Positions 26,133 to 56,188 of a DNA stretch of 57,323 nucleotides are shown in pieces; within the stretch, counting starts at the first letter, position 1, and every line of letters begins with the position of its first letter. The translations under genes and the position numbers were made by a program. Location: positions 1 to 57,323 of IMG/VR virus record IMGVR_UViG_3300042295_002426; one strand, written 5' to 3'. Below the pieces are notes generated by a model. That model made no database searches and was not told the origin of the DNA. It saw only the letters and a program-made list of their open reading frames with translations. Source of the DNA: a virus.

Positions 26133-26371
26133 ACCTCGATTTCTTTGCCGATCTCCACCGGGCCACGCCCCTCTGCGACAAGGTCCTCGCTCTCATCGGC
26201 GGGGCGACCGCCGGAGCCCTCACTCTCGGCCCTCTCCAGGCCTGGGTCGGGATCGCCGTCGGCATCGTGACCCTCCTCATCATGATCCCCCGCGCCGTCC
26301 TCGTCTGGCGGGATTTCGTCCGCAAGATCCGGACGGGCGAGGCCGAGAGCAAGGACGAGAACGAACCATGA
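26129..26371 (+). CDS. Second holin- or spanin-like membrane protein, 80 aa
   Basis: Start overlaps the endolysin stop (ATGA). Two hydrophobic segments (VLALIGGATAGALTLGPL; WVGIAVGIVTLLIMIPRAVL) and a charged tail (RKIRTGEAESKDENEP). Likely a holin, antiholin or other lysis-control protein. Paired with 25095-25265 it encloses the endolysin. Confidence 0.6.
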   Translation: MNLDFFADLHRATPLCDKVLALIGGATAGALTLGPLQAWVGIAVGIVTLLIMIPRAVLVWRDFVRKIRTGEAESKDENEP

Positions 26372-33603: not shown

Positions 33604-34725
33604 ATGATCTTCCGAGCCTCAGATGCCCTTGCCGAGATCGCTCCCTTCGTGGATGGCGGCGGCGTGGATGTGCGATGCGAGCCCGGCCGGTCTCAGGCTT
33701 TTGCCGTGCTGAACCGGGCCATTCGCCAACTCATGAACGAGGGCGACTGGCACGGCATGACCGCGACGATCTGCATGCCCGTGCGGAGCAGAGGAGTCCT
33801 CGTGCTCGATGAACGGTTTGAGACGATTCGCCTCGCGAAGTGGAAGTCCGGCAGCCCGATCCCGATCTACACCGAAGGATTCAAGTTTCTGGAGGGCGGC
33901 CTCGATCCAGAGGCGTCGGACATTCCTTCTCTTGTCGATCTTGGTGAATCGATTCCGCTGCACCGACAACTTCCCCGCGCGATGGCGATCCTGGCCTACT
34001 CCGAGCAGATCGAGCGGGACGGGATCGTCCTCGAGATCCGGGGCACGGATGAGAGCGGGCGCGAGGCCCTCTCCGCTCTCCCGATTCGGCATTCGTGGAA
34101 GAGCGCCCAGCCTCCGGCATACACCGGGGCAGACTGCGAGCGATGGCTCAGTGGTCGATGGGCGGCGGTGACCGAGTTGCGGAAGCCGGTCACGCAAGGG
34201 CTCGTCTACGTCTTCGGGTTCGACCCTTCGACTGGAGAGTCGGTTTGGTTGACCACCCTGCGACCGGAGACCCTTTCCCCGCAGCATCGCTGCTACGCCG
34301 TGCCGGGGTCGAAGACTGGAAACGGTCACCAAGTCCTCGCGAAGGTCGTGCTGCGTTGGCACCCGATGCACTTTGAGAGCGACGTCCTCCCAGTCCAGAA
34401 CATCGACGCCATCGCTCGGATGGTGCAGGCGCTTCACGCGCTCGATACCGGCGACGCGGCCCGTTACCAGTTCTTCACGAACAGCGCGATGAGCCAGCTC
34501 AACAAGCAGCTCTCCCGGCGCGAGCGTCCTGCCAAGACCGGTCTCCAGGTGAGCATGGTCCGCAGTCCCGCCCGGCTCGGCCGCGGTGGGCGTGGGGGGT
34601 TCTTTTCTCACTGCTCTTCCCCGGCGAGCCCCTCGACGCTTGAGGAAGAGGAAACCGAAACCACAATCCTCTCGGCGTGCCATCAGACACCCGAGGACGA
34701 ACCACCCCAGGGCGTCACTCTCTGA
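33604..34725 (+). CDS. Probable head-tail adaptor (tail tubular protein A-like), 373 aa
   Basis: MIFRASDALAEIAPFVDGGG, then LNRAIRQLMNEGDWHGMTA, is the helical pattern at the start of podovirus adaptor proteins that dock on the portal, followed by beta-rich sequence (RLAKWKSGSPIPIYTEGFKF, ITDE-like RGTDESGREALSALP). The C-terminal ~50 residues are Ser/Glu/Thr-rich and may be disordered. Context between nozzle and internal proteins supports it. Confidence moderate. Confidence 0.5.
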   Translation: MIFRASDALAEIAPFVDGGGVDVRCEPGRSQAFAVLNRAIRQLMNEGDWHGMTATICMPVRSRGVLVLDERFETIRLAKWKSGSPIPIYTEGFKFLEGGLDPEASDIPSLVDLGESIPLHRQLPRAMAILAYSEQIERDGIVLEIRGTDESGREALSALPIRHSWKSAQPPAYTGADCERWLSGRWAAVTELRKPVTQGLVYVFGFDPSTGESVWLTTLRPETLSPQHRCYAVPGSKTGNGHQVLAKVVLRWHPMHFESDVLPVQNIDAIARMVQALHALDTGDAARYQFFTNSAMSQLNKQLSRRERPAKTGLQVSMVRSPARLGRGGRGGFFSHCSSPASPSTLEEEETETTILSACHQTPEDEPPQGVTL

Positions 34726-34730
34726 AGATC

Positions 34731-35609
34731 ATGTCAGCACTCGGACTACTCGGAAGCATCGGCGGTGGGCTCCTCAATTTCGGGGCGGCAAAAGGTCTTG
34801 CCGATGACATCAGCAAGGCCCTCGACGTGCAGGGGCAGGCATGGGGCCTCGGCTACAACCTCCGCGACGTCTACGGCAAAAAGCCGGTGCTGCCGAAGTG
34901 GAAGTTCAACTATGGCGATCTCCAAAAGATGATGGCCGAGATGGGGACGCGAGCGGGAACCGTGGGTGTCGAGAATGCGGCCAAAGTAGCCGAGGGTTCA
35001 AACAAGGCCGCGGTCGAGCAACTTGAGGCCGCGATGCGCGAGATGTTCGGGGGACGCGGTTCCTTCGAACGCCAGCGTGATCTTGCAAGCCGCAACACGG
35101 AGGACATGCTCGCGGGAAAGCTGAGTCGCTCGGCCGAAAACCAACTCGCGCGCCGAGCCGTTTCCTCGGGTGCTGTGGGGCTTGGCGAGGGTGCTGTGAG
35201 CGACGCCTATGCCGGTTATCTCGGGCTCTCCCGGGAGGAAATCGTCACGCGCGGCAACCAGCAATACCAGAGCCTCTATCAGGGCTACCGCCAGGCGCTT
35301 CCGTTCGTCTCGGCTGCGGAGATGATGCCCTACACGACCCTTCAGATGGGACAGGCCGTGGGTGCCCGGATGATGCTGGAGGAGAACAAGTATCGCGCGA
35401 ACTACAACCGTGCGCTGGTGAAGGCGGCTCCAGACCCGATGGCGCAGGGTCACGTCTTTGCCGAAATGCAGCGCGACATGGCGGTCGCGGGAGCCAACTA
35501 CCAAGCCAACAGCCAACTCGGAGGAATGTTCTCCTCGGCGCTGAACGGCCTCGGCGGCCTCATGGGTGGCCAATCGGCGATGAGCTTCAACCCCACAGGA
35601 ATGTTCTGA
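34731..35609 (+). CDS. Internal virion (ejection) protein, 292 aa, probable
   Basis: MSALGLLGSIGGGLLNFGAA is a hydrophobic, glycine-rich N-terminus; then long alanine- and methionine-rich helices (AKVAEGSNKAAVEQLEAAM, LAGKLSRSAENQLARRAVSS, MAQGHVFAEMQRDMAVAGAN) and a glycine-rich end. Such Ala-rich, amphipathic proteins between tail genes and a giant protein are ejected with DNA in podoviruses. Starts five bases after the adaptor stop. Confidence 0.6.
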   Translation: MSALGLLGSIGGGLLNFGAAKGLADDISKALDVQGQAWGLGYNLRDVYGKKPVLPKWKFNYGDLQKMMAEMGTRAGTVGVENAAKVAEGSNKAAVEQLEAAMREMFGGRGSFERQRDLASRNTEDMLAGKLSRSAENQLARRAVSSGAVGLGEGAVSDAYAGYLGLSREEIVTRGNQQYQSLYQGYRQALPFVSAAEMMPYTTLQMGQAVGARMMLEENKYRANYNRALVKAAPDPMAQGHVFAEMQRDMAVAGANYQANSQLGGMFSSALNGLGGLMGGQSAMSFNPTGMF

Positions 35610-35610
35610 C

Positions 35611-36777
35611 ATGGCCCTTCCCGACATCGCAGGATACCTCGCCTCAACCCGACAGCCGATTGATTTCGTCGGTCCGGCGATCCAGGCGTTTCAGTCCATC
35701 TCTTCGGAGATGCGGGCAACGCGAGCCCAGAACCTCGCCGAAGAGGAGAGTGCCCGGGATCTCGGCAAGGGGATCAAAGAGGGGATGCAGAAGGATCGGA
35801 TGTTCCAAGAGGAACTGATCGACATGTCGCAGGAGCGGATGATCCGCGATCAAGACCAGCAGATGAAGATGATGCGCTTCGGCATGGACATGCGCGAGAA
35901 GGAGTTCAGGCATCAGAACCTTCTCCCGCTCGAGGTCCAGAGTCGCCAGCTCGGAATCGCTCGCGATCAGCAGATGTTCGAAGCCAAGGCGATGGAGATG
36001 CAGACCGAGCAGTATCTCCGGACCGTGGGTGTCGAGAATCTCGGCCGCGCCGGAGCCCTCATTGGGGGGAGCCTTCCTGTTCCCGAAGAGGCGATCGATG
36101 TGGCTGCCGGCGAAACCGCGGAGTCTCCCCAGGCGCGAATTCGCGCGGCGGCCAACCAGCTCGGATTGCTGGAGCCGCTGATCAAATCGAGCGGGGACAA
36201 GGGCCTGGCCGCCCAACACCAGAACCTTCAGCGAGTCCTCCAATCCGACCCCATGTATCGCTCCTTGGCGGCGAGCGACGGCCTGCTCTTGCCCGCAGAG
36301 AAGGCGGAACGCAGTAACCGCCGGATCGAACTGTTCCAGTCGATGTTGCCCTTTGATGATGAGGCCAGCGCCGGATTCATCGAGCGGAATTTCAAATCAG
36401 TCCTGACGATGAAAAACGGGACGGACAAGGAGTTTGATGCGATCTCCCGCCGATTGCTGGACCGCGCCGATACGGAGTACCGCGACTCCCAGCAAAATCC
36501 AACGACATCGCCACGCGGCGATTATGTGGGGGATCGAAACCGGTATGATGAGATCGCCAAGGCCAGGGCCGATGTTGCCGCTGCTCAAGCCGTGGTCGGG
36601 CAGAAAGAAGCAGGCGGCTCCACGTTGGGGATGGATGCCGCAATGGGTGCGCTTCGCTCCGCCGAAGCGAGGCTGAATTCCCTCGAGCAATCTTACGGAG
36701 GCTTAATCCCTAACCTTCCTGTGGCACCAGTCGCACCGGGACCAACAGGCTCAAACCCAGCGGATTTTTATCGGTGA
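35611..36777 (+). CDS. Internal virion protein, 388 aa, Met- and Gln-rich
   Basis: A long helical stretch unusually rich in Met, Gln, Glu and Arg (QEERMIRDQDQQMKMMRFGM-type region at about 70-130) suggests a coiled coil. C-terminal part: RADVAAAQAVVGQKEAGG, SAEARLNSLEQSYGGLIP. It lies one base after the previous gene and seven before the giant gene. Probably part of the ejected complex; no family recognised. Confidence 0.6.
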   Translation: MALPDIAGYLASTRQPIDFVGPAIQAFQSISSEMRATRAQNLAEEESARDLGKGIKEGMQKDRMFQEELIDMSQERMIRDQDQQMKMMRFGMDMREKEFRHQNLLPLEVQSRQLGIARDQQMFEAKAMEMQTEQYLRTVGVENLGRAGALIGGSLPVPEEAIDVAAGETAESPQARIRAAANQLGLLEPLIKSSGDKGLAAQHQNLQRVLQSDPMYRSLAASDGLLLPAEKAERSNRRIELFQSMLPFDDEASAGFIERNFKSVLTMKNGTDKEFDAISRRLLDRADTEYRDSQQNPTTSPRGDYVGDRNRYDEIAKARADVAAAQAVVGQKEAGGSTLGMDAAMGALRSAEARLNSLEQSYGGLIPNLPVAPVAPGPTGSNPADFYR

Positions 36778-36784
36778 GCTGACG

Positions 36785-39700
36785 ATGGGCAACTTCTTCG
36801 AAGATTTCATTTTCTCCGCCAAGAACGGGCACATTTACCTCGGCGACTATGGGGAATGGACGCCCGAGGAAATCATCGATGGTTCTTGGCTGAAGCAGTT
36901 TCGGCCTTCTCCGAAACCCTCGGTGGCGCCCGCCCCAAAAGCAAAGCCGGGCGACACCGAATCGGCCAAAGGGGCGCAACCCAGCCCATCGACCCCGGCC
37001 CCGGAAGCGCCGCCGCCGGATCCCAGCCCGGAGCCTGCGGTAGCCACCCCAGCACCGATGCCCACTCTCGATGCGGTGATCGACCACGGCCAGAAAGCGG
37101 GCAAGTCTCCCGAGGAAATCGCGGAAGCCGCCAAGAAGTGGCGCGACAAGGCGAGGACCTGGGGCGAGGAAAACTTTCGCGAAACGGATCCAAACAAGTG
37201 GTTCGCCGGGAACCGCAAACTCGACGCGCGGATCCGCGACGAACTGGCCGCGATCCAAGGCCGCGAGGCTACCGAGCGCATCGCCACCGAGATCCGCGAC
37301 CCGGGCGATCGCCAACGCTTTGCCGAGCAGTATTCCCAGAGCAACGGCGATCTGAATGCCTTTGAAGAAGGGAGCCCGGCTCGATCTCTGGCCGAGATCC
37401 TCAACCAGGAGGTCTTTCAGTCGCCCAAGTTCACGCTGCGAGGCGGCGGATCGGGTCCCATGCCGTTCTCGACCGAGGCCGGTGTGCCACTCGGCGACTT
37501 CGAAACCCAAATCCGCCCCGAAGGTGATCTGGACGTCGTCATCCGCGTCGATGACGAGGAGAAGGGCAGCGTCAGGAAGGCGATCACGATTCCCGAGATC
37601 ACGGACGAAGACATCGAGGCGGCCCGGAGGAAGGCGGAGGAGGAGGCGACGCAGCTTCGCCAAATCGAGAGAACGACGAACCAAGGACTCAGAGACGACC
37701 TCGCGGATGAGCCGGTTCAGCGGGGGTATGACGTTGGCTACCAGGGAAATCTAAAACTCCGAAAGGAGAAGGCCGAAAGAGCAGCCGAGACCGCCCGACT
37801 CAAAGCCGGACAATCCGAGTCCCGCGCCAACGTGCTTGCCGATCCCGGTCGCGGGCGACTTCTCCTTCTCCGCGAGCAAGTCGAGGAACAGATCAAAGCC
37901 GACAAAGATCTCAAGAAGGTGGTGGGTGATGTCGCCCTCGGCGAGGACTTCTGGCGGGGCGTGCAGCAGACCCATCTCGGGGCGCGCATGGCGGTCGCCG
38001 ACGCCACCGGCAACGAAGAGGAGAAGACGAAAGTCCGCGAACTGATCGGCGATCTCAGCCAGATCTATCCCGGCTCGACGAACCTCCAGTTCCGGGGCGG
38101 GGCCGGTGCGTTCGCCAGCGACGCTTCGATGGTGCTCGGAGGGATGCTGCCGACGATGATGGTTTCGCTGGGGACCGGGGGAGCGGCGGCGGTGTCTGGG
38201 GCAGCCGTTGGCGGCCTCACTCGAACCGCGGCCCTTTCGCCTATCGGTTTGAGTGCCTACGGCAACGCCTACGCCACGATGCTGAACGAAGCCGACGCCC
38301 TCGACGAGATAGGGCGGCGCGAGGAGGCCGCGCAACGTCGCAAGGACGCCCGCGTCTACGCATTGGCCCAGGCAGGGGTGGAAGTCGGCACCGAACTGAT
38401 CTTCAAGGAGGAAATGTTCCGAGTCGGAGGCAAAGGGTTCTTCTCGAAAGTGGGTGCCGGAGCCGCGCAGAACACCGTCGAGGAACTCCTCGCGGCGACA
38501 GGCAATGCCGAGCTCGACCGTGAGTTCCGCGATGAGTTGCCGAAAGAGGGTCAGATCGCCAGGGAAACCCTCTTGGGGACCGTGGTGGGCGGGCTGATGC
38601 AAGTGCCCGGAGGGGCGGTGGAAGTGTTTCTCCCGAAACCCCAGCCGGGCACTCCCGCAGGAAACGCGACACCGCCACCCGGGACGTCTCCCGGCGCAAC
38701 ACCCCCGCCTTCCTCCGCGCCACCTCCCGGGGCGACGCCTCCCCCCAGCAGTCCTCCACCTGGAACTGCGCCGCCACCGCCCGCTACGTCATCTCCGCCT
38801 TCGTCTGCGCCCCCGCCCGACACAACCCCGTCTGCCCCGCCACCGGGGACGCAGTTGACGGTGCCGGGCGACGCTGCGCTCTACCAGATCGGTGGCCGTT
38901 CGTTTGCGTGGACGCGCTGGGGATGGTTCGACCGAGACGCCAACAAACTCATCGATCCTCTGGCAGAACTTGGATTGGTCGTGCAACTGGACGAGGCACG
39001 CCGACGCCTCAACTCGGGAGAGCAACCCGTCAGCCCTGAGGTCACCCTCAACCCAGGCGAGACGCCCCGGATTCTCAGCATCGACGGCAACCGGTTTTTC
39101 ATGATCGACCCGGCGGGGAGAGGGTGGCTCGAAGTCTTCCCAGCGACCGGCAAGCCGTCGCAGTTGGTCAACTTCGCCCTCGAAGGCTCCAGCGGCGTCG
39201 AGACGCTCCGCCGTCTCCAGGCGAAGGTGGCGGAGCTGAGAGGAGAGACACCCGCTGATCCAAACGAAACTCCGGACCCGCCGGTCGAGCCCACTCCGCC
39301 GGTCGAGACGCCATCCAACGAAAGCGACCCAGCCCCAGAAATTCCCGAACGCCCAGCCGATGGCACGGTTTCCAGCGGCAAACCCAACGGGGCAAAGGCG
39401 CGGTTTCGGTGGAGGATCGTTTCCCGTTCCGACATCGAGGCGATGGTGGTTCGTGACATCGAGGAGGCTCAGACTCGCCAGCGGAAAGGCAACGTCGCCA
39501 GCGATGAGCAGCGCGAGCGCATGGCTACCGGTCTCGACCCTGATCTGGTTATGGAGTCTCCCGTCTCAAGCATGGGGGCTCCGGCGGTTTTCGAGGGGAA
39601 GGTTCTCGCTGGGAACGGCCGAGCTGATGGGATCTCAGAAGCCTATCGGCGGGGACTCGCCGCCGATTACGAAGCGAGGATCCGAGCATTCGCCACCGAG

Positions 39701-42700
39701 CGCGGGCTCGATGTCCCAGACGAGCCGATCCTGGTTCGCGAAATCATCGACTTCACCCAGGGCGACGCGCGGAGTTTCGTGGTGGAGTCCAATCCGAAGC
39801 GGGGCGGAATGCTCGCGGAGTCCGTTTCCGAACAGGCCCTCCTCGACTCCGAGACCATCGGCGACGAGGTCCTCGCCAATCTCACCTTCACGGCGGATGG
39901 AAACCTTTCGGCCGGATCACTCGCTGCGGTGGCGTCGAAACTGGAAGAGGCGAACCGCGGGATCACGCGCACGCTCTCGGGTCAGTTCGACCGCTCCGAG
40001 GCTGGCCGCCGGGTCATGGCCGCGTTCCTTTCTCGGCTCGTCTCAAAGGCCGGGCGAGACGCCTCCGATGTCGCGTCGATCCTCGAATCCGATGGCGGCA
40101 AGCGCGCGGTGTCGGCGATCGCCCAGGCGGCTCCGCGACTCTCGAAACTCGATAACGATCTCTCGCTCGCATCGCCCATCGTGGAGTCGCTCTTGGAATT
40201 CAAATCCGGTCTCAGTGCGGTTTCAAAGGGAGAGTTTGCCAACGTAAGCGACTGGTTTGAGAACCGGACCAGTGAGCTGCTCGCGGCCAATCTCGATCCC
40301 GTCTCGCGAGAGATCCTCAAGGAAATGGCCGGGTCGGTGACTTCCGGGGCGGCCATGAGAGACCTCCTCGCCGAATATCTCGTGGACGCCGAGGCGGAAC
40401 AAAAGGAGCGTGACAGCGCATCTTCAACAGGTGATATTTTCGGTGATGAGCGAGCCAATCAAGCCCCCGAAGACATCTTCCGAAAGCTCGGTAGGATCAA
40501 AGGCCCGGACCCCGGTGTCGGCTCTGGAACTGTTGAGGCGAGCCAGCGCGAGACTGGAGGCCAAACGGAAGGCAGGCCAACCACCGGCCCAGCTGTAGGC
40601 CCGGAGGCCGAAGGCCAACTCATCCCCGAGGGCGAGATGCCCTTCAACCTCTCCGGCGAGACCATCGTCGAACCGCCGCCGGTCGAGCCCGAGGATACCC
40701 GCACCGATGCCGAGCAGGATGCGGACAGCGGACAGGGCCGCCTCTTTGAGGATCGCATCACCACGCCGCCACTCCGGCCGCGACAGGACCGGCTGGGCCG
40801 GTTGGGCCGGTTGGTCGATGGGTTCTCGGCGCGTCATCCCGAGAAACGCCCCGAGACGCCTCCTGCCCGCAACGAGGCGCAAGAGGAGCACCTGCGTGCC
40901 ATCAAGGCCGGAGTCGAGGAATACTTCGGCGGCGACGTCCCCGCCGGTGTTCGCGTTGTGTGGGATCCCGCGGCGGTTTGGGATGCCCAGTTCCACCGCG
41001 CGATGCGAATCATCGAGGCCAACGCGGCACTGATTAGGCGCGGCGAGATTTCGTTCAAGCTGGACCATGAGATTGGTCACCTCCTTTTCTCGGACAAACA
41101 GTTCGCAGCAGACTTTGAGACGCTCTGGAAGTCGCTCCCGAAAACCGTGCAAGATCGGATCAGCCGCGGCGTCCAGGGTCATGTCGAGCGGGGATACTAC
41201 GCCGAGGACGAGGCCTTTGAGGAAACCCGTGTCAGGGCTCTCGAACACATCCGCAGGGCGGCCTCCAGCGAAAATGCCGACCCTGCGATGAAGCGTGCGT
41301 GGCGCCGGTTTGTCCGCGCCGTGATCCGTGCGTTCAATCGTCTCACCGGCCGCAAGCCGGTCGACCCGCAGCGTCTCGCCGCGGCCATGATCGAGATCGG
41401 TGTCGCGAGGATGCGTGGCGATTCGGGCAGCGCCGGTGTCGGTAGTATGTCTTCCGTTGTCGAGTTCGAGACGTTCAAGGATTGGGCGCTTCGCGAAATC
41501 GCTGACAATCAGTTCCTCCAGGAGGACGCGGGGCGTCTCTGGGTGGCGTCCGATGTGCGGGGCAACGTCAACGAGGTCTTCGGTTCGTTCGCAGATGCCG
41601 ACGAATACTTCCGGACGATGTCAGGGAAAGGCGAGTTTCTCTGGGATGTGACCGAATCCTACGAGCGAATGGTGGGCGGGATCCCTGCTCGAAAGCCGGA
41701 TGGACCGATCAAGGCAAGCGAGGCGAAGCAGGCTTTCTATGGGCTCGAGCCCATGCCTGGCGAAACGCCAAGCGAGGCCGGAAACCTCCCGCAACTCACG
41801 CCGATGGGCAGGCCCGTCACTCCGGCGGTGTTGCCGGACCATGCGCTCCGCTACGGCTTGCCTTCTGATGAGGATTCCGGCCGCGATGCCACCCCCATGC
41901 GTCGCGTCCCGAATCCGGGTAAGCCCTACCGGCCGGGGCAAGCGATCTTCTCGATTCGTGAGGCGGGCGAAGTCGGATGGGAAGACCGGGCGCAACGGTT
42001 GATGCGGCGCATCGATCAGATGTATGCGACCGGCCGGGTCGAAGAGGTCGAAGATCTCGAAGCTGAACTGGAAGCCATCCTTGAGCGAGCGGACACCGAT
42101 CTCGACGGGATGGACGAGGGCGACGACGCCGACCAGGTGAGGGAAATGCAGACCAGCGACCTGTCGGAGTTTGATTCCGCGCCGCCGGATCCCGAGGCGC
42201 AGCTGGTGCAGTTCTGGCTCCAGTGGAACGGTCAAGGCGGGCCGTCGTACATGAGGGAATTGGCGAGGCGAGATAACGCCACCTTCGGCCAATATGTCCG
42301 GAACTCCCTTGGTGATTCCGCCTACGTCCTCAATGATGGAGTCACCGACGAACAGATCGAAGAAGCCGCCGAAGAGGCCTTCGCCAACTACGAGCGAAGG
42401 AGGAACGCGATGCTTCGCGCACTTGAGCGTCGCCGTAGCATCTCATCGATCGCCGCGGATGACCCAGGCCAGACCACGCCTGAACCACCGCTCTCCATCG
42501 ACGGTCCGATCGAATCGGACATCGACGCCGCGGCCGAGGCCCTAGCCAATCTGGAGTCGGCCTTCCGGGTTTCCTTCTTGGTGGGCGACTTCGACGGGGC
42601 GGCATCCGCGATGGACTCCGCGAACGTCGAGACCTTTACGGCCTTTGCCGAGAAGCTGATCCGGTTGGCCGCGGCCGGTGACCCAAGCGCCGAAGGAATG

Positions 42701-45700
42701 CTGGAGTGGATCGAGGCGATCAACTCCGGGACGCGCGTGGACACCGACATCGATCCGGAGCTCGAGGATCTGATCCGCAAGATGCGTGAGCGGTTCCCCA
42801 ATCGACGACGCAGGGGTAGGGCCGACCATCTCCAGAAGTTCCACTCTCCGGACGCATTCGCCGCCGCGTTTGCCGCGTTCGTGGCCGCGGGCGACTTCCA
42901 GAGCGCCTACGAGGCCGTGCGCGACACGGATGACAGCATCCGCATCCCGGTGATGAAGCGGTTCCTCAAGGCGGCCAAGGGCGGTGATCCGGTGGCGAAG
43001 AAGAACTACGAGTGGATGAGTCACATCTTCAATGGCACGACGCCACCTGGAGTCTCTCAGCCCGGTGCCGGAACCTCCGCACCTCCTCCGGGGAGCGCCC
43101 CGCCACCCGGGTCGTCAACCCCGCCACCGGGAGCTTCGGCGCCTCCGCCAAGTGCGCCTCCGCCGGTCGCGCCGAAGACGCCGCCTCCCCGGCCCAGTGG
43201 AGTCGAGAAGCTGAACATTCCCGCCCTGGTGTTCCTCGCCAAGCGCATGGGGACCACGCCGATCGTGAGACGGTTCCGGGCACGGGGGATGTATCAAACG
43301 ACCAACCCACGCGGCCAGCGCCAGGACAATCCGAAGATCTTCGTGAACGAGTTCCTCGCGAAGGAGGACTGGCAACAAGCGGCGCGGACCCTCGCCCACG
43401 AGATCGGTCACTTCATCGACTACATCATCGCCGCTGTCCCAAGCGCAGACATCGTCAAGAGCCTCATCCCGCTGCAAGCCGAGCGGGACCAGTTCATCGA
43501 GGACATCTTCGGTGTCGGGACGGCCTACACTGCGGCGCGGAAATACATGATGGAGGAGGCTGTCGCGCTTTCGAAACGGATGCGCGGAGACTTTTCGCCG
43601 TCGGACTCCTACCGGATGTCGGCGGCTGAGCTCTACGCCGATTTTCTCTCGGCGGTGATGATCGACCCGGATCTGGCGTTCGACGTCGCCCCGCTGATTT
43701 CGCACGCCTGGTTCGCCCACCTCAACCAGAAGCCGGAGGCGGAATCAGCGTGGAACCTGATCCAAAACCTCATCAAGGGGGACGGGCTCCACGATGCGAT
43801 CAGGAGCGGCCGCGTCACCGAGCAACGCGCCGCCATGACCGAAGTGCGGAACCGGGCGGACAGACGCAGCGCCCTCCACGCCGGCTGGAAGAAATTCCGC
43901 AACGGTCTCGCGGGGGCCCTCTGGAGCCGTTACCTCCCGGCTGCCGCCAAGGGCGCGAGCAGTTCCGGTCGATGGGAGTTCACCAACCGGTGGTGGAAGG
44001 CGGTGACCCAACCGAACGAGAACGACTTCCTCGCGCGGATGGAAGGCGCGGAGATCGAAGCCTCCCAGCGGGGGAGCGTCCTGCGGATCAAGATGCAGCG
44101 CGACGTCTACGACCCGCTGATGCGGCACGGCATCGACACGGCGCAACTCGACGAATACCTCACCTTCTTCCAGATCCTCAACGAGGACACCGCGACCCGG
44201 CAATACCTCAACGCGAATCCTGACGAGTTCCGCGAATTCCTCCTCTGGCTCGACGACACCGTCTCGCTGTCGCGCGAGGCAGAGATTCAGGGCGCGGCGG
44301 ATGCTGACTTGGATGAAATCGGAGCGACCATGGTGGGGCACATCCAGCTCCACGATCTGTTCGATACGGTGTATGCGGCGGCGCAGAGTATCGATGCCCC
44401 GGACATCGCGGAGCTGGGCCTCTTTGCCTTCGACATCGCCCGCTACCAGTGGAACCAGGACGGGCACACTCCCGAAACCGCCCAGCAGGGCATGGAATTC
44501 CTCCGCCGCGAACTGGGCGACGAACGCTTCAAGGTGCTTCGCGATGCGTCGAAGGCGTTCCATCAGAACCTTGCCGGGATCGTCCGCGAGGCGAATTCCG
44601 TGGGGCTCTTCAGCGACCGGATCTGGAACGAGAAGATCAAGACCAACCTCGGCAACTACGTGCCCCGAATGGTGCTGGAGTATTTCACCGGCGAGATGTC
44701 GGCCTCGATCAAGCAACGGCGCGGCAGCGTGAAGGCGACCTTGCCCAAGCAACTCGCGGGCGAAGGCCAGGCGATGGTGCTGCTCCACAAGATCGCCAAG
44801 CAGAAGCAGATACTGATGATCCTGGAACAGGCTGCCGACCTCGGGTGGAACAAGGAGATCCGGCGGATCAACATCCCCAAGGGAAAAAATGTCGAGGCGC
44901 TCGCCAAGAAAATGGCGAGGGAGGAAGGCAAGGGACTGCGCGGCTACTGGGTGAAGGGCAAGTGGCGGTGGCTCGAGTTCGATGACATCGACGTGGTGCG
45001 GTGGATGGACTCCGCCTCCCCCACTGATCTGAAGTTTCTCTACGACATCGCCAAGGCGAACGAGAGCTTCTGGCGTCTCTCGACGACCGTGCTCAATGCC
45101 TCCTTCGCGCTCTACAACAACTGGGCGAGGACGGTCGCCGGGTTGCCGATGGACTATGGGCCGAGGGCGGTCGCGCACACGATCCGCCAGATCCCGGAAG
45201 CGGTGAACTGGGCCAAGGCGAGCCTGGGCCGCGCCGCGCCCTCTGACCGTGTCCTCGATCTGGTCGAGCGCGGCGTGCTGCCGGCCTTTGGCCAATACAC
45301 CGCCGGAGACCTGCTGCTCTCGCACGACGACCTCATCGACCAGATCTCCTCCGGCCTCGTCGGCATCGACGCGCTTCGTCGCGGTTCCCGTGCTTTCGGG
45401 CCCCTCGAAAAAGTGGCGAACCTGCCAGGGCTCCGACAGGTCATCGAGTTTCTGGGGATGTTCACCGGCACGGCCGAAGCCCTACCGAAGCTCGCGGTCG
45501 AGTCCCTCCTCGAAAAGCGCGGACTGCCGCAGTGGGAGCGGGATCGTCTCGCCCGGATGGAGGGCATCCCCAACACCGGCCTCTCGGCCGGGAAATACGG
45601 ATCCTATGCCGGACTGCTCTCCCTGTTTTACCGGGTCTGGGCACAGGGCACGCGCCGCATGATGACCTTGCCTTTCAATCCCAGAACGCGGGGAGCCTGG

Positions 45701-46738
45701 TGGATGGGCAACCTCCTCGGCTACGGCGCCATCAAAGCCTTCTACTCGGCAGCCGCGGCGGGGATCCTCGACGCCATGATGGGTGGAGGCGAAGACGAGG
45801 AAAAGCAGGTCGATTGGCAGGAGGCTTACACCCGAGTCTCGCCCTACAAGATCCGCATGGCCGACGCCTTTTTCCTGGGGTGGGTGCTCCCGGACGGATC
45901 CTACGAGCCGCCCTACGGCCACACCTCCATCCCAGGGAACTGGACGCCGATGATGTGGCGAATCCCCTACACGGAATCGGGTCGATTGACGGCCCCCTTG
46001 GCTTCGCTCTGGACGAGTCTGGCGATGCCGAGCAGCCCCTTGCGGCCGCGGAACTGGAGGGAGGGCATGCGCGTGGTCCGCGATGTGGCCCAGAACTCGA
46101 TCCTGCCAAGTGCCAACCCGGTTTTCGAAAACGGCGGATACGCCCTCTCGATCTTTAACCCGAGATCACCCTACGACGCCTATTCCGGCCGCGATGTCGT
46201 GCCGGAGGACGAGTGGGACGCTGGCATCCCTTCGCGTGCCTGGGGCATCACCCGGCACCTCCTCGAAGAGACTCCGGCCCGGAACGTGGTCCCTGCGGTG
46301 AAGCAGGGAATCCGCAACGAAAACGCGCTGCCACCCTGGGCCAGAGCGGTCATGAGCATCCCCGGAGCCTCCGCGGCGATCTCCTTCGACAACAGTCCGA
46401 TGGCCGCCGACTACATGGACCGCATCGAGGAGCGGGACTCCGTGAACCGCGAAGCGCGGCGACTCCGGGGACCGAAGGCGATGGAGGCGGTTTCCCTGCG
46501 ATCCCGGCTCAACCGGATCCCTTCGGAAAAGCGGACGCCGGATGAGCAGGCCAAGATCGAAGTCCTCAACGCCTGGTATCGGGAAGCCTACCTCGGCTCT
46601 GATCTCTATCCCGGCCTCTTCCGGGAACTCCAGGCCGCGGCAAGCGGGATGGAGGGAATTGATGAGAAAGCAGCGAAGAAGGCGCTGGAGGAGACGGCAA
46701 GCGAGGTGCTGCGGGAGATTGGCGGGGTGGGGAGGTGA
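36785..46738 (+). CDS. Giant 3317-aa polyvalent virion protein with ParB-like and two zincin domains
   Basis: One open frame of 9.95 kb, about 17% of the window. Order seen: Pro-rich linker (about 40-95); charged helices; hydrophobic stretch about 442-505 (SDASMVLGGMLPTMMVSLGT); Pro/Gly/Ser linker 618-692; small beta domain; ParB/DdrB-like domain about 869-1205 (PVSSMGAPAVFEGKVLAGNG, REIIDFTQGDARSFV); zinc-protease motif HEIGH at 1428-1432; helical and Asp/Glu-rich part; Pro linker 2084-2140; second zinc-protease motif AHEIGHFIDY (H2205) with a likely third ligand in SAAELYADF (E2282); long helical polyvalent-type region; hydrophobic GYGAIKAFYSAAAAGILDAM near 2980. Such proteins are packaged and injected to cross the envelope and protect DNA. 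Confidence 0.8.
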   Translation: MGNFFEDFIFSAKNGHIYLGDYGEWTPEEIIDGSWLKQFRPSPKPSVAPAPKAKPGDTESAKGAQPSPSTPAPEAPPPDPSPEPAVATPAPMPTLDAVIDHGQKAGKSPEEIAEAAKKWRDKARTWGEENFRETDPNKWFAGNRKLDARIRDELAAIQGREATERIATEIRDPGDRQRFAEQYSQSNGDLNAFEEGSPARSLAEILNQEVFQSPKFTLRGGGSGPMPFSTEAGVPLGDFETQIRPEGDLDVVIRVDDEEKGSVRKAITIPEITDEDIEAARRKAEEEATQLRQIERTTNQGLRDDLADEPVQRGYDVGYQGNLKLRKEKAERAAETARLKAGQSESRANVLADPGRGRLLLLREQVEEQIKADKDLKKVVGDVALGEDFWRGVQQTHLGARMAVADATGNEEEKTKVRELIGDLSQIYPGSTNLQFRGGAGAFASDASMVLGGMLPTMMVSLGTGGAAAVSGAAVGGLTRTAALSPIGLSAYGNAYATMLNEADALDEIGRREEAAQRRKDARVYALAQAGVEVGTELIFKEEMFRVGGKGFFSKVGAGAAQNTVEELLAATGNAELDREFRDELPKEGQIARETLLGTVVGGLMQVPGGAVEVFLPKPQPGTPAGNATPPPGTSPGATPPPSSAPPPGATPPPSSPPPGTAPPPPATSSPPSSAPPPDTTPSAPPPGTQLTVPGDAALYQIGGRSFAWTRWGWFDRDANKLIDPLAELGLVVQLDEARRRLNSGEQPVSPEVTLNPGETPRILSIDGNRFFMIDPAGRGWLEVFPATGKPSQLVNFALEGSSGVETLRRLQAKVAELRGETPADPNETPDPPVEPTPPVETPSNESDPAPEIPERPADGTVSSGKPNGAKARFRWRIVSRSDIEAMVVRDIEEAQTRQRKGNVASDEQRERMATGLDPDLVMESPVSSMGAPAVFEGKVLAGNGRADGISEAYRRGLAADYEARIRAFATERGLDVPDEPILVREIIDFTQGDARSFVVESNPKRGGMLAESVSEQALLDSETIGDEVLANLTFTADGNLSAGSLAAVASKLEEANRGITRTLSGQFDRSEAGRRVMAAFLSRLVSKAGRDASDVASILESDGGKRAVSAIAQAAPRLSKLDNDLSLASPIVESLLEFKSGLSAVSKGEFANVSDWFENRTSELLAANLDPVSREILKEMAGSVTSGAAMRDLLAEYLVDAEAEQKERDSASSTGDIFGDERANQAPEDIFRKLGRIKGPDPGVGSGTVEASQRETGGQTEGRPTTGPAVGPEAEGQLIPEGEMPFNLSGETIVEPPPVEPEDTRTDAEQDADSGQGRLFEDRITTPPLRPRQDRLGRLGRLVDGFSARHPEKRPETPPARNEAQEEHLRAIKAGVEEYFGGDVPAGVRVVWDPAAVWDAQFHRAMRIIEANAALIRRGEISFKLDHEIGHLLFSDKQFAADFETLWKSLPKTVQDRISRGVQGHVERGYYAEDEAFEETRVRALEHIRRAASSENADPAMKRAWRRFVRAVIRAFNRLTGRKPVDPQRLAAAMIEIGVARMRGDSGSAGVGSMSSVVEFETFKDWALREIADNQFLQEDAGRLWVASDVRGNVNEVFGSFADADEYFRTMSGKGEFLWDVTESYERMVGGIPARKPDGPIKASEAKQAFYGLEPMPGETPSEAGNLPQLTPMGRPVTPAVLPDHALRYGLPSDEDSGRDATPMRRVPNPGKPYRPGQAIFSIREAGEVGWEDRAQRLMRRIDQMYATGRVEEVEDLEAELEAILERADTDLDGMDEGDDADQVREMQTSDLSEFDSAPPDPEAQLVQFWLQWNGQGGPSYMRELARRDNATFGQYVRNSLGDSAYVLNDGVTDEQIEEAAEEAFANYERRRNAMLRALERRRSISSIAADDPGQTTPEPPLSIDGPIESDIDAAAEALANLESAFRVSFLVGDFDGAASAMDSANVETFTAFAEKLIRLAAAGDPSAEGMLEWIEAINSGTRVDTDIDPELEDLIRKMRERFPNRRRRGRADHLQKFHSPDAFAAAFAAFVAAGDFQSAYEAVRDTDDSIRIPVMKRFLKAAKGGDPVAKKNYEWMSHIFNGTTPPGVSQPGAGTSAPPPGSAPPPGSSTPPPGASAPPPSAPPPVAPKTPPPRPSGVEKLNIPALVFLAKRMGTTPIVRRFRARGMYQTTNPRGQRQDNPKIFVNEFLAKEDWQQAARTLAHEIGHFIDYIIAAVPSADIVKSLIPLQAERDQFIEDIFGVGTAYTAARKYMMEEAVALSKRMRGDFSPSDSYRMSAAELYADFLSAVMIDPDLAFDVAPLISHAWFAHLNQKPEAESAWNLIQNLIKGDGLHDAIRSGRVTEQRAAMTEVRNRADRRSALHAGWKKFRNGLAGALWSRYLPAAAKGASSSGRWEFTNRWWKAVTQPNENDFLARMEGAEIEASQRGSVLRIKMQRDVYDPLMRHGIDTAQLDEYLTFFQILNEDTATRQYLNANPDEFREFLLWLDDTVSLSREAEIQGAADADLDEIGATMVGHIQLHDLFDTVYAAAQSIDAPDIAELGLFAFDIARYQWNQDGHTPETAQQGMEFLRRELGDERFKVLRDASKAFHQNLAGIVREANSVGLFSDRIWNEKIKTNLGNYVPRMVLEYFTGEMSASIKQRRGSVKATLPKQLAGEGQAMVLLHKIAKQKQILMILEQAADLGWNKEIRRINIPKGKNVEALAKKMAREEGKGLRGYWVKGKWRWLEFDDIDVVRWMDSASPTDLKFLYDIAKANESFWRLSTTVLNASFALYNNWARTVAGLPMDYGPRAVAHTIRQIPEAVNWAKASLGRAAPSDRVLDLVERGVLPAFGQYTAGDLLLSHDDLIDQISSGLVGIDALRRGSRAFGPLEKVANLPGLRQVIEFLGMFTGTAEALPKLAVESLLEKRGLPQWERDRLARMEGIPNTGLSAGKYGSYAGLLSLFYRVWAQGTRRMMTLPFNPRTRGAWWMGNLLGYGAIKAFYSAAAAGILDAMMGGGEDEEKQVDWQEAYTRVSPYKIRMADAFFLGWVLPDGSYEPPYGHTSIPGNWTPMMWRIPYTESGRLTAPLASLWTSLAMPSSPLRPRNWREGMRVVRDVAQNSILPSANPVFENGGYALSIFNPRSPYDAYSGRDVVPEDEWDAGIPSRAWGITRHLLEETPARNVVPAVKQGIRNENALPPWARAVMSIPGASAAISFDNSPMAADYMDRIEERDSVNREARRLRGPKAMEAVSLRSRLNRIPSEKRTPDEQAKIEVLNAWYREAYLGSDLYPGLFRELQAAASGMEGIDEKAAKKALEETASEVLREIGGVGR

Positions 46739-51403: not shown

Positions 51404-52063
51404 ATGGAGAACGTGTTTTTTAACGTTTTGAAGGATCGCGAGTCCCCTCCCGGCGGATGGAGGTGGCATCACCCCGTTACCGGCCAAATCTTCTCCCGCG
51501 AAAGCTTCTCCGACCTGCTCGAAAGCGCCCAGCGAACACTGCTCAATCTGGGCCTCGACCCGTCCCTCGCCTCGACCCAGATCCACCAAGCCACGGCGGC
51601 CAACCTCATTCAGCTCGGTCGAAACGACCTCGTCCAGGTCACCAAGGAAGTCCCCCGCTCTGCCGAGCAATACACCGCCGGCGCCAAAGCGACCTTCCTC
51701 AAGTGGTGGCGCGAGAGTCCGATCTTCGGTCTCCTCCAAGGCAAGGCGAGCCGCGGCGAACCCGTCTTTGTCCCTGACGACGTCGCCAACGGTCGCGCCC
51801 TCGTCTGCGCGAAGTGCCCCCACAACGTCATCCCGGCCGGGAAGGGGTGGCTGCAAAACTGGACCGACGGACAGATGCTGAAATCCGTCGAGGGCCGCAC
51901 GACCGCGAGCCAGGACCGTCTCGGCGTCTGCGAGGTCTGCTCGTGCGAGCTGCGGGCAGCGGTCTGGTGGCAACCGGACATCATCGCCACGACCACGCGC
52001 GACGCGAAATTCGCCCGTCGTCTGCCACGGCATTGCTGGAAGCGCAAGATCCTAGAATTATGA
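51404..52063 (+). CDS. Phage protein with two CxxC pairs (zinc-binding?), 219 aa
   Basis: MENVFFNVLKDRESPPGGWR starts with AGGGAG close upstream. N-terminal half helical (FSDLLESAQRTLLNLGLDPS, TAGAKATFLKWWRESPIFGL); the C-terminal half has ALVCAKCPHNV (C135, C138) and GVCEVCSCEL (C176, C179, C181), likely a zinc ribbon, and a basic tail. No family recognised. It precedes the portal genes with coupled starts, so a head-assembly or packaging role is possible. A broken copy lies outside attL at 2878-3414, lacking the second CxxC pair. Confidence 0.75.
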   Translation: MENVFFNVLKDRESPPGGWRWHHPVTGQIFSRESFSDLLESAQRTLLNLGLDPSLASTQIHQATAANLIQLGRNDLVQVTKEVPRSAEQYTAGAKATFLKWWRESPIFGLLQGKASRGEPVFVPDDVANGRALVCAKCPHNVIPAGKGWLQNWTDGQMLKSVEGRTTASQDRLGVCEVCSCELRAAVWWQPDIIATTTRDAKFARRLPRHCWKRKILEL

Positions 52064-52347
52064 TACCCCAACCCACCACCGAAACCGAAGCGCCGGCCCA
52101 GCCGGATAACGTCACCCCCATCGGCATTCCCGCTGACGATGCCGCTCCGACCCCGGAGCAGATTGAAGCCGCCCGGAAGGCAGTCGAGGAAGACATGCGG
52201 GAAGCGCTCCCCTTCAACCGTCTCGCCATCCATGTCGGATTTCAGCGCGCCATCCAGGGGGCGGTGGCGGGAAACAAGCCAGAGAAGGTCGGGCCGCTCT
52301 GCGCTGCCTTCCGCAGCTTCGCTGAAGCCGAATCTCTCCTCAAATGA
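52060..52347 (+). CDS. Small phage protein upstream of portal, 95 aa
   Basis: Start overlaps the previous stop and its stop overlaps the portal start (ATGA both). A Pro/Thr-rich acidic N-terminus (MIPQPTTETEAPAQPDNVTP) and a helical C-terminus (AIHVGFQRAIQGAVAGNKPE, AAFRSFAEAESLLK). Likely a small head-assembly or portal-associated protein; no family recognised. Confidence 0.65.
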   Translation: MIPQPTTETEAPAQPDNVTPIGIPADDAAPTPEQIEAARKAVEEDMREALPFNRLAIHVGFQRAIQGAVAGNKPEKVGPLCAAFRSFAEAESLLK

Positions 52348-54602
52348 CCACAACCCCTCCGGCGGAAGCAGACGCCCTCCGCGCCCCCGATCCGGCGCGT
52401 CCCTCAGCGGGCCGCGTCATCGATGCGCCGCGCGTCCGCGGCCTGATCTCCGCCGGTGCCCGGAACCTCGAACACCGCTTGGAACAATATCGGCTGGTCG
52501 AGGACGCCTACGACCGTGTCCCGCCCGATACCGAGGAGCAACTCCGCGCCGACGGTCTCGGGTGGGCCGCTAACGTCGACTGGGGTGGAATGGAGGCCGG
52601 GATCGATTCGGCGGCATCGCCCTACGTCAATCTCCTGACCGAGCCGGAGCCTTTCGTGAAGTTCTGCTCCTACGCACAGATCCCGAACCTGCACCATGCC
52701 CTCACCGAGCTCGCCCGCGCCGACGCGGAGCTGCTGCGCGACTGGCCGGACTGGATCTACGAGGCCCAGATGATGATCCACAACCGGGTCGCGCATGGGA
52801 TGGGCATCTTCTATTTCCCCCAGCCGCACGGATGGCACTTCCAGTCGCTGCACCCGGCGAACCTGATCACCCCGCCGAAGGCCGGGCTCAATCCCGAGCG
52901 GTGGCCCTGGTGCGCCGTTGTCACGGAGTTCGAGGTGCCGGATCTGCTCGCCAAGCTGACCGACAAGGACGAGGCGCGGAAGCAGGGCTGGAACCCGCCC
53001 GCGGTGCGCGATGCCATCGAAAAATACCGGCGCGGCGACGGCGCCCGGTGGCCCCACAACCTGGACGTCGATCAGGCGGTCCACGGGTTTTCGAACCATT
53101 CCATGATGGGCGTCTTCGACGAGTCGGTCACCATCAAGGGATTCATCTTCTACGTCCGCGAGAGCGACGGGACGATCTCCGAGTATTGGCTGACCAATCA
53201 GGAGGAGGTGGGATTCCTCTACAAACGGCAGAAGCAACAGAGCCGGATGTCGCGGGTGATCAGCGTCTTCCCCCACGGCCTGGGGAGCGGCTACCTCAAC
53301 AAGGTCCGCGGGCACGGCATCAAGAGTCTGCCGTATCACGATCTGGAGAACCGTGCCTTCAACCACTCGATCGATGTGACCTTCCTCGCCTCGAACCTCA
53401 TGCTCCGAGGCAACGGCCAGGATCTGCATCGCCTCCCCGAGATGGTCTTCGGACCGGTGACGGTGATCCCGGAGGAGTTCGCGCTCGAGCAGCAGTCCTT
53501 CCAGAATCCGGCCGGTGGGCTCGTACAGCTCTACCGCGAGATGAACGCGATGCGGGCCAGTCGCAACCAGGTCTTCGGCGGGAACATCGATGTCTCTCCG
53601 AACGTGGACCGCACCGCCTCCGGCGCCCGGATGCGCTACCAGGAACAGACCGGGATCCGAAGCCACGACGTCGCCCGTTTCTATCATCAGGTGCGGATGT
53701 TCCACGCAGCCCGCTGGGAGCGCATGATGGACCCGGAAGCCGCCGAATCCGATCCCGGCATGGCCGAGGCGAAGGAGATGCTGCGACGGGCCATGCTCCG
53801 CGGCTGCCCACCGGAAGCCATCGCGGGCATCTACAAGGTCAACGTGGTGACGGTCTTTGGCGAAGGCGATCCGGTGAACCAGTTTCTCGCCATGATGGAT
53901 GTCCGGGAACTCTACGGCCAACTCACCCCGACGGGCCGGAAGGTCTACGCCCGCGCCACCCTCAACGCCCGCCTCCGCGACCCAGACCTGGTGGATCAGC
54001 TCGTGGGCCGAGAGGATGCCCTCATCGACGAGGCCGACTCCCGGCACCGCCAGATCGCCCAGGGCGAGAATGCCGACTTCCAGAGCAGCGATGTCCGCAT
54101 CGATGTGGCCGAGACCGACAACCACCTCATCCACGCCGGCGAGCACACCGTCTTCACCGAGGACACTCTCGGGCAATTGGGCGAGGGAATCCTGTCGGAG
54201 GAGGATGCGTTCCGGACCGTCTCGCGCGTCCAGGCCCACATGGGCCCCCACCTCGAAATGGTCGCGAGCGATCCTCTGAGCCAGGCCGAGGCCAAGGATC
54301 TCCAGCGACGGTGGGCCGACATCACCAACTCCCTGCGCCAACTCGCTCAGAAGCTCGAAGCGAAGCGACAGCGGATGCAGGAAGAGCAGATGGAGGAGCT
54401 CCGCAACCCGCGCCCATCGGTGAAGGATCAGGAGACCGCGCTGACCGAGGAGGTCAAACGCCAGAGCCTCCTGCGCGAGACTGAAGCAAAGATCACCATT
54501 CTCGAGCGCGAGTCCCGGTTCCGCATGGGGCGAGAAATGGAGACGGCTGCCCAGGAAGGCCGCATCGCCGAGCTCAAACGTCTACCCGTCGAAAACGCAT
54601 GA
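52344..54602 (+). CDS. Portal protein (podovirus-type head-tail connector)
   Basis: 752 residues, acidic and soluble. YVNLLTEPEPFVKFCSYAQI, NRVAHGMGIFYFPQPHGWHF and FGPVTVIPEEFALEQQSFQN with the long stem-like helices near MNAMRASRNQVFGGNIDVSP fit portal proteins of podoviruses, and RTASGARMRYQEQTGIRSHD is a typical wing-crown segment. The C-terminal 150 residues are charged coiled coil (LRQLAQKLEAKRQRMQEEQM). It forms the dodecameric channel that works with the large terminase. It is coupled to small genes on both sides. Confidence 0.82.
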   Translation: MTTTPPAEADALRAPDPARPSAGRVIDAPRVRGLISAGARNLEHRLEQYRLVEDAYDRVPPDTEEQLRADGLGWAANVDWGGMEAGIDSAASPYVNLLTEPEPFVKFCSYAQIPNLHHALTELARADAELLRDWPDWIYEAQMMIHNRVAHGMGIFYFPQPHGWHFQSLHPANLITPPKAGLNPERWPWCAVVTEFEVPDLLAKLTDKDEARKQGWNPPAVRDAIEKYRRGDGARWPHNLDVDQAVHGFSNHSMMGVFDESVTIKGFIFYVRESDGTISEYWLTNQEEVGFLYKRQKQQSRMSRVISVFPHGLGSGYLNKVRGHGIKSLPYHDLENRAFNHSIDVTFLASNLMLRGNGQDLHRLPEMVFGPVTVIPEEFALEQQSFQNPAGGLVQLYREMNAMRASRNQVFGGNIDVSPNVDRTASGARMRYQEQTGIRSHDVARFYHQVRMFHAARWERMMDPEAAESDPGMAEAKEMLRRAMLRGCPPEAIAGIYKVNVVTVFGEGDPVNQFLAMMDVRELYGQLTPTGRKVYARATLNARLRDPDLVDQLVGREDALIDEADSRHRQIAQGENADFQSSDVRIDVAETDNHLIHAGEHTVFTEDTLGQLGEGILSEEDAFRTVSRVQAHMGPHLEMVASDPLSQAEAKDLQRRWADITNSLRQLAQKLEAKRQRMQEEQMEELRNPRPSVKDQETALTEEVKRQSLLRETEAKITILERESRFRMGREMETAAQEGRIAELKRLPVENA

Positions 54603-54940: not shown

Positions 54941-56188
54941 ATGACACCGAACCCACAACCCGCCGCCGAACCGTTGCCCGCCCAGGGCACCGTCCCTGCA
55001 AACCTCATGGCCGATCTTTTTCCGGGATCGGGTGAGCCATTGCCACCCAGCACGCAGACTCCGCCGTCGTCCGACGTTTTCGGCATCGACATCAGTCCCG
55101 CTCCAGTGATGCCCTCCGCTGCCGCGGCTCCTGAGGTCAGTGCCGTCTCGGGACTGTCCCTTGAGGATTTCGTCTCGAAGCACATCGCGGATCCGGACAC
55201 GCTGTTCCAAGGGGACGGTCGGAAGATCTCCCAGTTCCGGGAACTCCGTGGCCTCTTCGAGGGCGCGACCCGCGATCTCGCGGCGGCGCATCTCGAGCTC
55301 TCGCAACTCAGGCAATCCCAGGTCGCCGCCCCGGTTTCGAACGGAGCCCCTCTACCGGAGACGGAGGCGATCCAGAAGCTCACCGCCGAGATCGAGGCGC
55401 TGAAACCCGCCGCGCAACGGTGGCAGGAACAGGAGGCCCGGCAGTCGATTCGACAGACCCCCGCATTCCGCGCCGAGTTCGATGCGCCCCGAGCGGAGAT
55501 CCTCCGCGAGATCGGCGAGGTGTCCGACGAGATCGGCCTCGACCGGGAAGACGTCGAAGAGTTTCTGCGCCTCGACACCGAGCTGAAGCAATCCAAGTGG
55601 ATCCGGGAGAACGTGGACGATTCCGACGCCGCCGACATTTACCGCCAGAAGGGGAAGGCGTTTCTCTCGATGACCAAGCAGGCAACCGCGGTGCTGGAGT
55701 CCGCCGATCCGATTGCCGCTCTGCGCGACTGGGAGGATTACAACAGCGCCTTCGCCACGAAGTTCGCCGCAAAGCTCGAGGAAAGTGCGGCCAAGGAATT
55801 GCAGGGCGCGACGAGTCGCGTTCTCGGGCAACTCTCAGCTGGCGTCGATCCCTTCTTCGCGACCGATTCCGGCAAGGCCGTCCTTTCCGATCTGACTCGA
55901 CGCGCCGCCGAAGGGCGCGGGTTCTCCGCCGACGAAGTTGTGGAAGCGGTGGCGATGTCCCGGTCGGCTACCGCCTACCAAGCGCTCGCTCAGAATCTGC
56001 AGCATCGCGCCCTCGCCGCAGAGAGGGAACTCGCTCGCCTTCGCGGGCTCAATCCGACGCCGATTCCACCCGATCCGCTCCGTGGAGGAGCCGCCCCGGC
56101 ACCGGGAGACCTCTACGGTTTCGGCTCGCATGACGGCAGCGGCATCCGACCGCTCATCCTTGCCGACCAGATCAGGCTTTCTTCCTGA
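54941..56188 (+). CDS. Probable capsid scaffolding protein
   Basis: 415 residues, acidic. A Pro/Ser/Ala-rich N-terminus, then long alanine/glutamate-rich coiled-coil helices (FEGATRDLAAAHLELSQLRQ, LTAEIEALKPAAQRWQEQEA, HRALAAERELARLRGL) and a short C-terminal segment. That composition and the place after the portal match phage scaffolding proteins that guide capsid assembly and then leave. The capsid gene itself is 31 kb away at 23103. The 3' end overlaps the convergent integrase by 17 bases. Confidence 0.72.
   Translation: MTPNPQPAAEPLPAQGTVPANLMADLFPGSGEPLPPSTQTPPSSDVFGIDISPAPVMPSAAAAPEVSAVSGLSLEDFVSKHIADPDTLFQGDGRKISQFRELRGLFEGATRDLAAAHLELSQLRQSQVAAPVSNGAPLPETEAIQKLTAEIEALKPAAQRWQEQEARQSIRQTPAFRAEFDAPRAEILREIGEVSDEIGLDREDVEEFLRLDTELKQSKWIRENVDDSDAADIYRQKGKAFLSMTKQATAVLESADPIAALRDWEDYNSAFATKFAAKLEESAAKELQGATSRVLGQLSAGVDPFFATDSGKAVLSDLTRRAAEGRGFSADEVVEAVAMSRSATAYQALAQNLQHRALAAERELARLRGLNPTPIPPDPLRGGAAPAPGDLYGFGSHDGSGIRPLILADQIRLSS

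Follow-up and report, generated by a model that had tools for sequence, protein, structure and literature searches.

A divergent phage giant of the polyvalent class with a ddrB-ParB domain, a predicted zincin and a C-terminal module common to other phage giants

We analysed a single virus record of 57,323 bases (hereafter the window), in which one open reading frame encodes a giant protein of 3317 residues. This giant is a divergent, distant but recognisable member of the described class of phage polyvalent proteins and thus a useful added example, not a new kind of system. Judged from its sequence, membership of the class is very highly probable: several unrelated domains (ddrB-ParB, a second zincin and a C-terminal module) occur in one very long chain, and the first of these is the hub domain of the polyvalent network (Pfam PF18763, E 7.6e-18). 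Overall, the explanation that we somewhat favour is that of a polyvalent protein that would be made late, packaged and ejected, and whose second zincin would cut its own chain.

The giant gene and its ddrB-ParB domain

The features of the giant, all on the plus strand, are the following.

36785..46738 (+), giant polyvalent-type protein, 3317 residues, open reading frame without internal stop
36860..37111 (+), Pro-rich stretch, residues 26-109, by Pro count
38588..38902 (+), Pro-rich linker, residues 602-706, by Pro count
39209..39388 (+), Pro-rich linker, residues 809-868, immediately N-terminal of ddrB-ParB, by Pro count
39377..40504 (+), ddrB-ParB plus conserved extension, residues 865-1240 (Pfam core 868-986), by Pfam and homologue alignment
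40601..40690 (+), Pro-rich linker, residues 1273-1302, by Pro count
40928..41503 (+), region around the first HEIGH motif (HEIGH at 41066-41080, residues 1428-1432)
41735..41845 (+), Pro-rich stretch, residues 1651-1687, by Pro count
43013..43261 (+), Pro-rich linker, residues 2077-2159, immediately N-terminal of the second zincin, by Pro count
43226..43843 (+), predicted second zincin, residues 2148-2353, by HExxH motif and profiles
43397-43411 (+), second HEIGH motif, residues 2205-2209
43628-43630 (+), candidate third zinc ligand, Glu2282, by alignment
43844..46735 (+), C-terminal module, residues 2354-3317, common to the giants of Baldr, L130 and L154 and, by profile, to LPD38-type proteins

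A first-pass annotation of this DNA had proposed a 3317-residue large polyvalent protein with a ParB/DdrB-like domain, two HExxH motifs and Pro-rich linkers, and these elements stand. The frame is intact and its codon-position G+C (0.66/0.49/0.78) is biased as in a real gene; the chance of an open frame this long at this base composition is about 4e-39. Six Pro-rich stretches are found when these are defined by at least 7 Pro per 30 residues. Exactly two HExxH motifs occur in the chain, HEIGH at 1428 and HEIGH at 2205, where 0.022 are expected by chance because the protein has only 30 His; by Poisson arithmetic, two or more would arise with a probability of about 2.5e-4. Polyvalent character is supported by the ddrB-ParB domain, the zincin, the C-terminal module common to other phage giants and the position of the gene as the last of a same-strand run.

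The ddrB-ParB domain (residues 868-986) passes the Pfam gathering score and is the sole part of the giant recognised across Pfam, PHROGs and NCBIfam; the PHROGs match lies there too and is to proteins of unknown function, and NCBIfam gave no match at all. Homology continues past the Pfam core to about residue 1240. According to Iyer et al. (2017; PMC5512222), ddrB-ParB is a domain of phage late genes and has a conserved arginine in its active site, and in an alignment of the window protein with six relatives a G-N-x-R motif is kept throughout (GNGR in the window protein). Relatives were found in nine of 50,697 phage records, at 25-34% identity, all of them only at query residues 857-1232, in proteins of about 950 to 3421 residues. 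Seven of these nine were inspected (Piluca, an Acinetobacter phage contig, TPWB-05, two Manatee Spring podoviruses, vB_Pun_Y3 and phiARM81mr), and in each the matching gene sits among late virion genes: in the epsilon15-like Piluca it is annotated as a 'tail protein' and precedes the 'pilot protein', and in the Manatee Spring podoviruses the giant gene comes after stabilisation/internal virion genes.

Six 8-residue patterns retrieved no close full-length relative of the giant from viral_contigs, and among 87 loci (ddrB-seeded viral_contigs scan, best 80 of 315) the best match outside ddrB reached E 0.27. Two scans of genome_contigs returned no relative, the second carrying little weight because HEIGH was misaligned in its alignment. 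PDB sequence searches with regions of the giant gave nothing relevant.

The zincin-like regions and the C-terminal module

The two HEIGH motifs had been taken to mark two zincin domains. This is supported for the second, whose profile match reaches E 5.9e-10, but not clearly for the first, whose profile matches do not stand clearly above shuffles. No zincin is recognised in the giant by Pfam, PHROGs or NCBIfam at useful thresholds, Peptidase_M78 appearing only at E 0.11. In the second region HExGH and Glu2282 are invariant across four aligned sequences, window protein included; on such sequence features, the combination of HExxH with a downstream Glu that marks zincin-like metallopeptidases is present in the second region only, and this domain is likely to be a working zinc peptidase.

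The pattern AHE[IL]GH[FY][IL]D, searched as a slightly wider DNA pattern, occurs in 64 stretches of 2.9 million viral contigs, mostly in short proteins. One giant, the viral-contig locus L130, is similar to the window zincin outside the motif as well (phmmer E 1.6e-6; third-ligand segment alone, 4.8e-4), the set searched being 913 ORFs of loci chosen beforehand by motif or ddrB. L130 as query retrieved the giant of the Pelagibacter phage Baldr (EXVC032P, 2329 aa, OQ414636.1, annotated as a hypothetical protein) at 27% identity over 87% of the query, and a further scan of viral_contigs added one locus, L154. With LPD38-type proteins added to the profile, the hhalign match to the window protein extends from HEIGH through the third-ligand helix (E 5.9e-10); the best of 40 shuffles reached 8.4e-5, and these shuffles preserve 10-residue blocks, so that the HEIGH motif remains intact in many of them.

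The similarity does not end with the zincin. The window protein, L130 and Baldr align collinearly from the zincin to the C-terminus, and a profile of L130 and Baldr matches the window protein at E 4.1e-7 (C-terminus alone, E 1.6e-3). When L154 is added, three collinear blocks are obtained (E 3.7e-6, 2.5e-5 and 1e-4), with nulls of 0.12 for the reversed sequence and 1.3e-4 for the best of 40 block shuffles; the window C-terminus against these three giants gives E 9.1e-5, slightly below the best whole-segment shuffle (1.3e-4). All three relatives have the second zincin and the C-terminal module as in the window protein. Baldr and L130, unlike the window protein, are without ddrB-ParB, and Baldr has, by eye, a transglycosylase-like stretch near its N-terminus. 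Identity between the window protein and Baldr and the contig relatives is 20-23%, and they differ in that a long helical insertion separates HExxH from the third-ligand helix. The Baldr giant gene lies after tail tubular A and B and before the tail fibre.

More remotely, this group is related to LPD38-type proteins. The group profile matches an LPD38-type profile (phiARM81mr, L054, L094, L128 and L135) at E 7.6e-12 over 580 columns, and in the reverse direction, in which the nulls were run, at E 2.1e-10 (reversed, 0.08; best of 20 block shuffles, 1.1e-3). Pfam LPD38 was detected in phiARM81mr, L128 and L135, the three that were scanned, and for L054 and L094 the label LPD38-type is our own. 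LPD38 itself (PF18857) has no Pfam match in the giant at E up to 1, and when the window C-terminus by itself is set against the unmixed LPD38-type profile, no significant match results (E 0.15), so the link depends on Baldr, L130 and L154. It appears that the module at the C-terminus of the Baldr and viral-contig giants and, more remotely, of LPD38-type proteins is also present in the window protein, as its second zincin and last ~970 residues.

We also considered whether this module is the C-terminal domain of the phage N4 virion RNA polymerase (a zincin, C1, and a helical C2), with the same action. The layout is alike, as the cryo-EM description of N4 vRNAP places HExxH at 2124-2375 and then ~1100 helical residues (PMC12633501), and the LPD38-type profile gave two weak collinear matches to the N4-type C-termini (L155-L167; E 0.03 and 0.04). 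The group profile against the 13 N4-type C-termini, however, gave E 0.15, inside the range of 20 shuffles (0.056-0.63), which leaves sequence homology unsupported and makes the identity improbable.

For the first motif the evidence is mixed. By eye, the sequence around it is similar to the HExxxH zincins of phiARM81mr, L054 and vB_Pun_Y3, and the motif lies behind ddrB, where the Manatee Spring giants ctype202 and ctCJ8213 carry HExGH. Five profiles were used (HExxxH, HExGH, LPD38-type, combined and short-protein zincin), three of them set against shuffles: the HExxxH group gave a marginal E 0.0025 by hhalign, with 2/60 shuffles as good, and two other zincin profiles gave E 0.009 and 0.00063, equalled by 22/60 and 19/60 shuffles, respectively. 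AlphaFold returned an all-helical model of the region at low confidence (mean pLDDT 48.4), both AlphaFold models being unreliable (mean pLDDT 48.4 and 41.9), and the pattern DHE[IL]GH[LF][LF]F from the neighbourhood of the motif had no match in 2.9 million viral contigs. Such results would suit a pentapeptide that arose by chance within a helical or disordered stretch; the second HEIGH would then be the sole zincin and 'two zincins' would be wrong. Against this stand the very low number of HExxH motifs expected in the chain and the two relatives with HExGH soon past ddrB-ParB (at 1137 and 1132), in the same order as in the window protein. A chance origin is a credible minority reading; on balance, we lean towards the first motif sitting in a real zincin.

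A census of ddrB proteins places the pairing in a wider frame. It comprised 167 ddrB loci in 36 clusters, drawn from 7 phage records, 80 loci (the best of 315), 79 of the best 80 of 213, and L135, which is cut at both ends; L168 was dropped, being on the same contig as L054, and the window protein was excluded. As only the best 80 of 315 and of 213 were kept, the census is skewed to seed-like loci. Every cluster above 2400 residues has HExxH or HExxxH (8/8), compared with a single one of the 28 clusters of at most 1340 residues (HExxH in L245, 999 aa). Both motifs occur in three of the eight giant clusters (L174, L054 and L005), and the window protein, outside the census count, is a ninth ddrB giant with two motifs. 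In L054, L005 and L174, an HEW(W/F)HALDN-type motif and HExxxH co-occur, a second kind of two-zincin pair.

The giants of phiARM81mr (3190 aa, in a late-gene context) and L135 have, like the window protein, ddrB-ParB and a zincin-type motif before a C-terminal module; they also carry Pfam LPD38 and a methylase (L135 also RadC), not found in the window protein. The giant of the Pseudoalteromonas phage vB_Pun_Y3 (3421 aa) likewise joins ddrB-ParB to two zincin-type motifs, which are HEWWH and HExxxH, in a chain that also carries ART, methylase, LPD1 and LPD5. In ctype202 and ctCJ8213 (2480 and 2476 aa) the ddrB-ParB is about 28-30% identical and followed by HExGH; there is no second motif, and their C-termini do not align significantly with the window protein.

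Gene context and proposed function

The giant gene ends a plus-strand run (23052-46738) that contains a virion structural PHROG match (E 3.8e-13); the genes downstream are on the minus strand. Within the run lie the following genes.

25287-26132 (+), lysin with peptidoglycan-binding and M15 (D-Ala-D-Ala carboxypeptidase-type) parts, in the late run
34677..35609 (+), 310-aa gene, second upstream of the giant, internal-virion-protein-like by eye, no significant family
35611..36777 (+), 388-aa gene immediately upstream of the giant in the same run, coiled-coil-like by eye, no family

A PHROG scan of 10 window proteins to E 5 gave nothing useful, the direct neighbours of the giant having no family, and among 644 pairings of a window protein (14 in all) with a late protein of a relative (46 in all), none was significant (best E 0.0018). 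Podovirus character, as proposed in the first-pass annotation, is backed by the relatives only. In one of these, phiARM81mr, a gene upstream of the giant, within the late run, is annotated as tail-tip fibre; the polyvalent class may thus not be confined to short-tailed phages.

The tail-tip fibre annotation would suit a long-tailed phage in which the giant is a tape-measure-like tail protein and its enzymatic domains are incidental, and the giant is indeed the longest late gene, no tape measure being recognised elsewhere among the scanned window proteins. The giant, however, ends the plus-strand run and is followed by minus-strand genes where distal tail genes would be expected, and its homologues are podovirus giants in internal-virion-protein position, plus LPD38-type proteins. 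A tape-measure role is very improbable.

Closer parallels are proteins carried in virions. P1 DdrB, detected in the virion head by 39 unique peptides (PMC9024508), has ddrB-ParB and a zincin like the window protein; as described, it has 108.7 kDa, about a third of the size of the window protein, and one zincin. JC1 gp69 (4515 aa, C-terminal LPD38) gave 51 unique peptides in CsCl-purified particles (PMC9144972). Burkholderia JC1 gp69 and Bcep22 gp75 (DarB-like), also compared by description only, are giants encoded last in the morphogenesis module; helicase, methylase and transglycosylase are listed for them besides the C-terminal LPD38, and no ddrB-ParB. By analogy with P1 DdrB and JC1 gp69, the window protein is probably packaged and ejected into the cell.

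Two other ejection proteins, both treated in PMC8954989, were discarded as identities. The epsilon15 gp16-type protein (~950 aa) has ddrB-ParB and a transglycosylase-like segment and is followed by a gp17-type pilot gene; the ddrB-ParB is common to both, but the window protein has 3317 residues and no Pfam transglycosylase, and the next gene is on the opposite strand. T7 gp16 has a transglycosylase domain, of which the Pfam scan of the giant gave no sign, and the window's lysin-type gene lies apart from the giant.

We suggest that the giant would be made late and packed into the head alongside the DNA, reaching the cell by ejection during infection. The conserved core would comprise the second zincin and the long module (the C-terminal ~1170 residues), probably for packaging and passage, and ddrB-ParB would be a passenger that may act on DNA or protect the incoming genome. 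The second zincin would most likely cut its own chain, or its neighbours, at the Pro-rich linkers, in the head or after entry, freeing the modules. Iyer et al. report that about 36% of polyvalent proteins have one to five zincins and about 8% more than one; the roles that they propose are self-processing (which for P1 DdrB would precede packaging) or activity after injection, host targets being another possibility (PMC5512222). Nothing further on zincins came from PMC11440229 or PMC10925440. That self-processing is the main role of the second zincin is a tentative inference, held at a little under even confidence, and that the domain serves only in structure or encapsidation is rather unlikely.

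The first-pass annotation had instead both zincins cut envelope proteins or host defence factors. Host targets are one of the several roles allowed by Iyer et al. (PMC5512222), and two motifs per chain, as in three of the eight giant clusters, could suit two targets. We found no specific support for this proposal, the survey putting self-processing first: no target emerged and neither region is similar to a characterised effector protease; no PDB sequence match fell below E 0.03, most matches being unrelated, and a venom-metalloprotease match (E 0.047) spans just 41 profile positions around HExxH; and the first motif marks only a candidate zincin. We regard attack on host proteins after ejection as unlikely. 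More elaborate, and very doubtful, is a one-chain ejection machine whose two zincins both cut Pro-rich linkers at two stages, the C-terminal one freeing the conserved module in the maturing head or channel and its counterpart behind ddrB-ParB the DNA-acting part once in the cell.

Literature searches found no published account of the lineage of the window protein, nor of the Baldr giant, for which the search term also matched many unrelated words, so that this negative carries little weight. Our findings extend the core made of zincin and C-terminal module, known from polyvalent ejection proteins, to a divergent lineage missed by family libraries, join the Baldr giant to the LPD38-type class and provide a sequence signature by which unannotated phages can be searched for such proteins. 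As all eight clusters of ddrB-ParB giants have zincin motifs, self-processing is directly testable in cultured phages, for instance vB_Pun_Y3 or Baldr.

Other features of the record

Readings by eye of a portal (52344-54602) and an integrase (56172-57323) gained no support from Pfam or PHROGs. Within the late run, a methyltransferase gene (27378-27959, plus strand; PF13578, E 1.5e-11) adjoins a gene that is glycosyltransferase-like by eye, with no family (26368-27381, plus strand). On the minus strand, a staphylococcal-nuclease-type gene (20249-20869; SNase, E 4.5e-23) has, by eye, a signal-peptide-like start. At the very edge of the record (1-1002, plus strand) lies a transposase (DDE_3, E 1.8e-31), presumably IS630-like. 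A direct repeat of ~400 nt (2993-3392 and 51525-51924, 48.5 kb apart) consists of two blocks, 74% and 92% identical, its copies lying inside plus-strand ORFs at 2944-3414 and 51404-52063, the second without a PHROG. Finally, three consecutive RHS-core paralogues on the minus strand (11596-13284, 13639-15393 and 15799-16530) differ in their C-terminal tips, and RHS_repeat (Pfam) was found in the two that were scanned (E 1.1e-6 and 4.2e-7); this layout resembles the tip exchange of polymorphic toxins and is unusual in a virus record.
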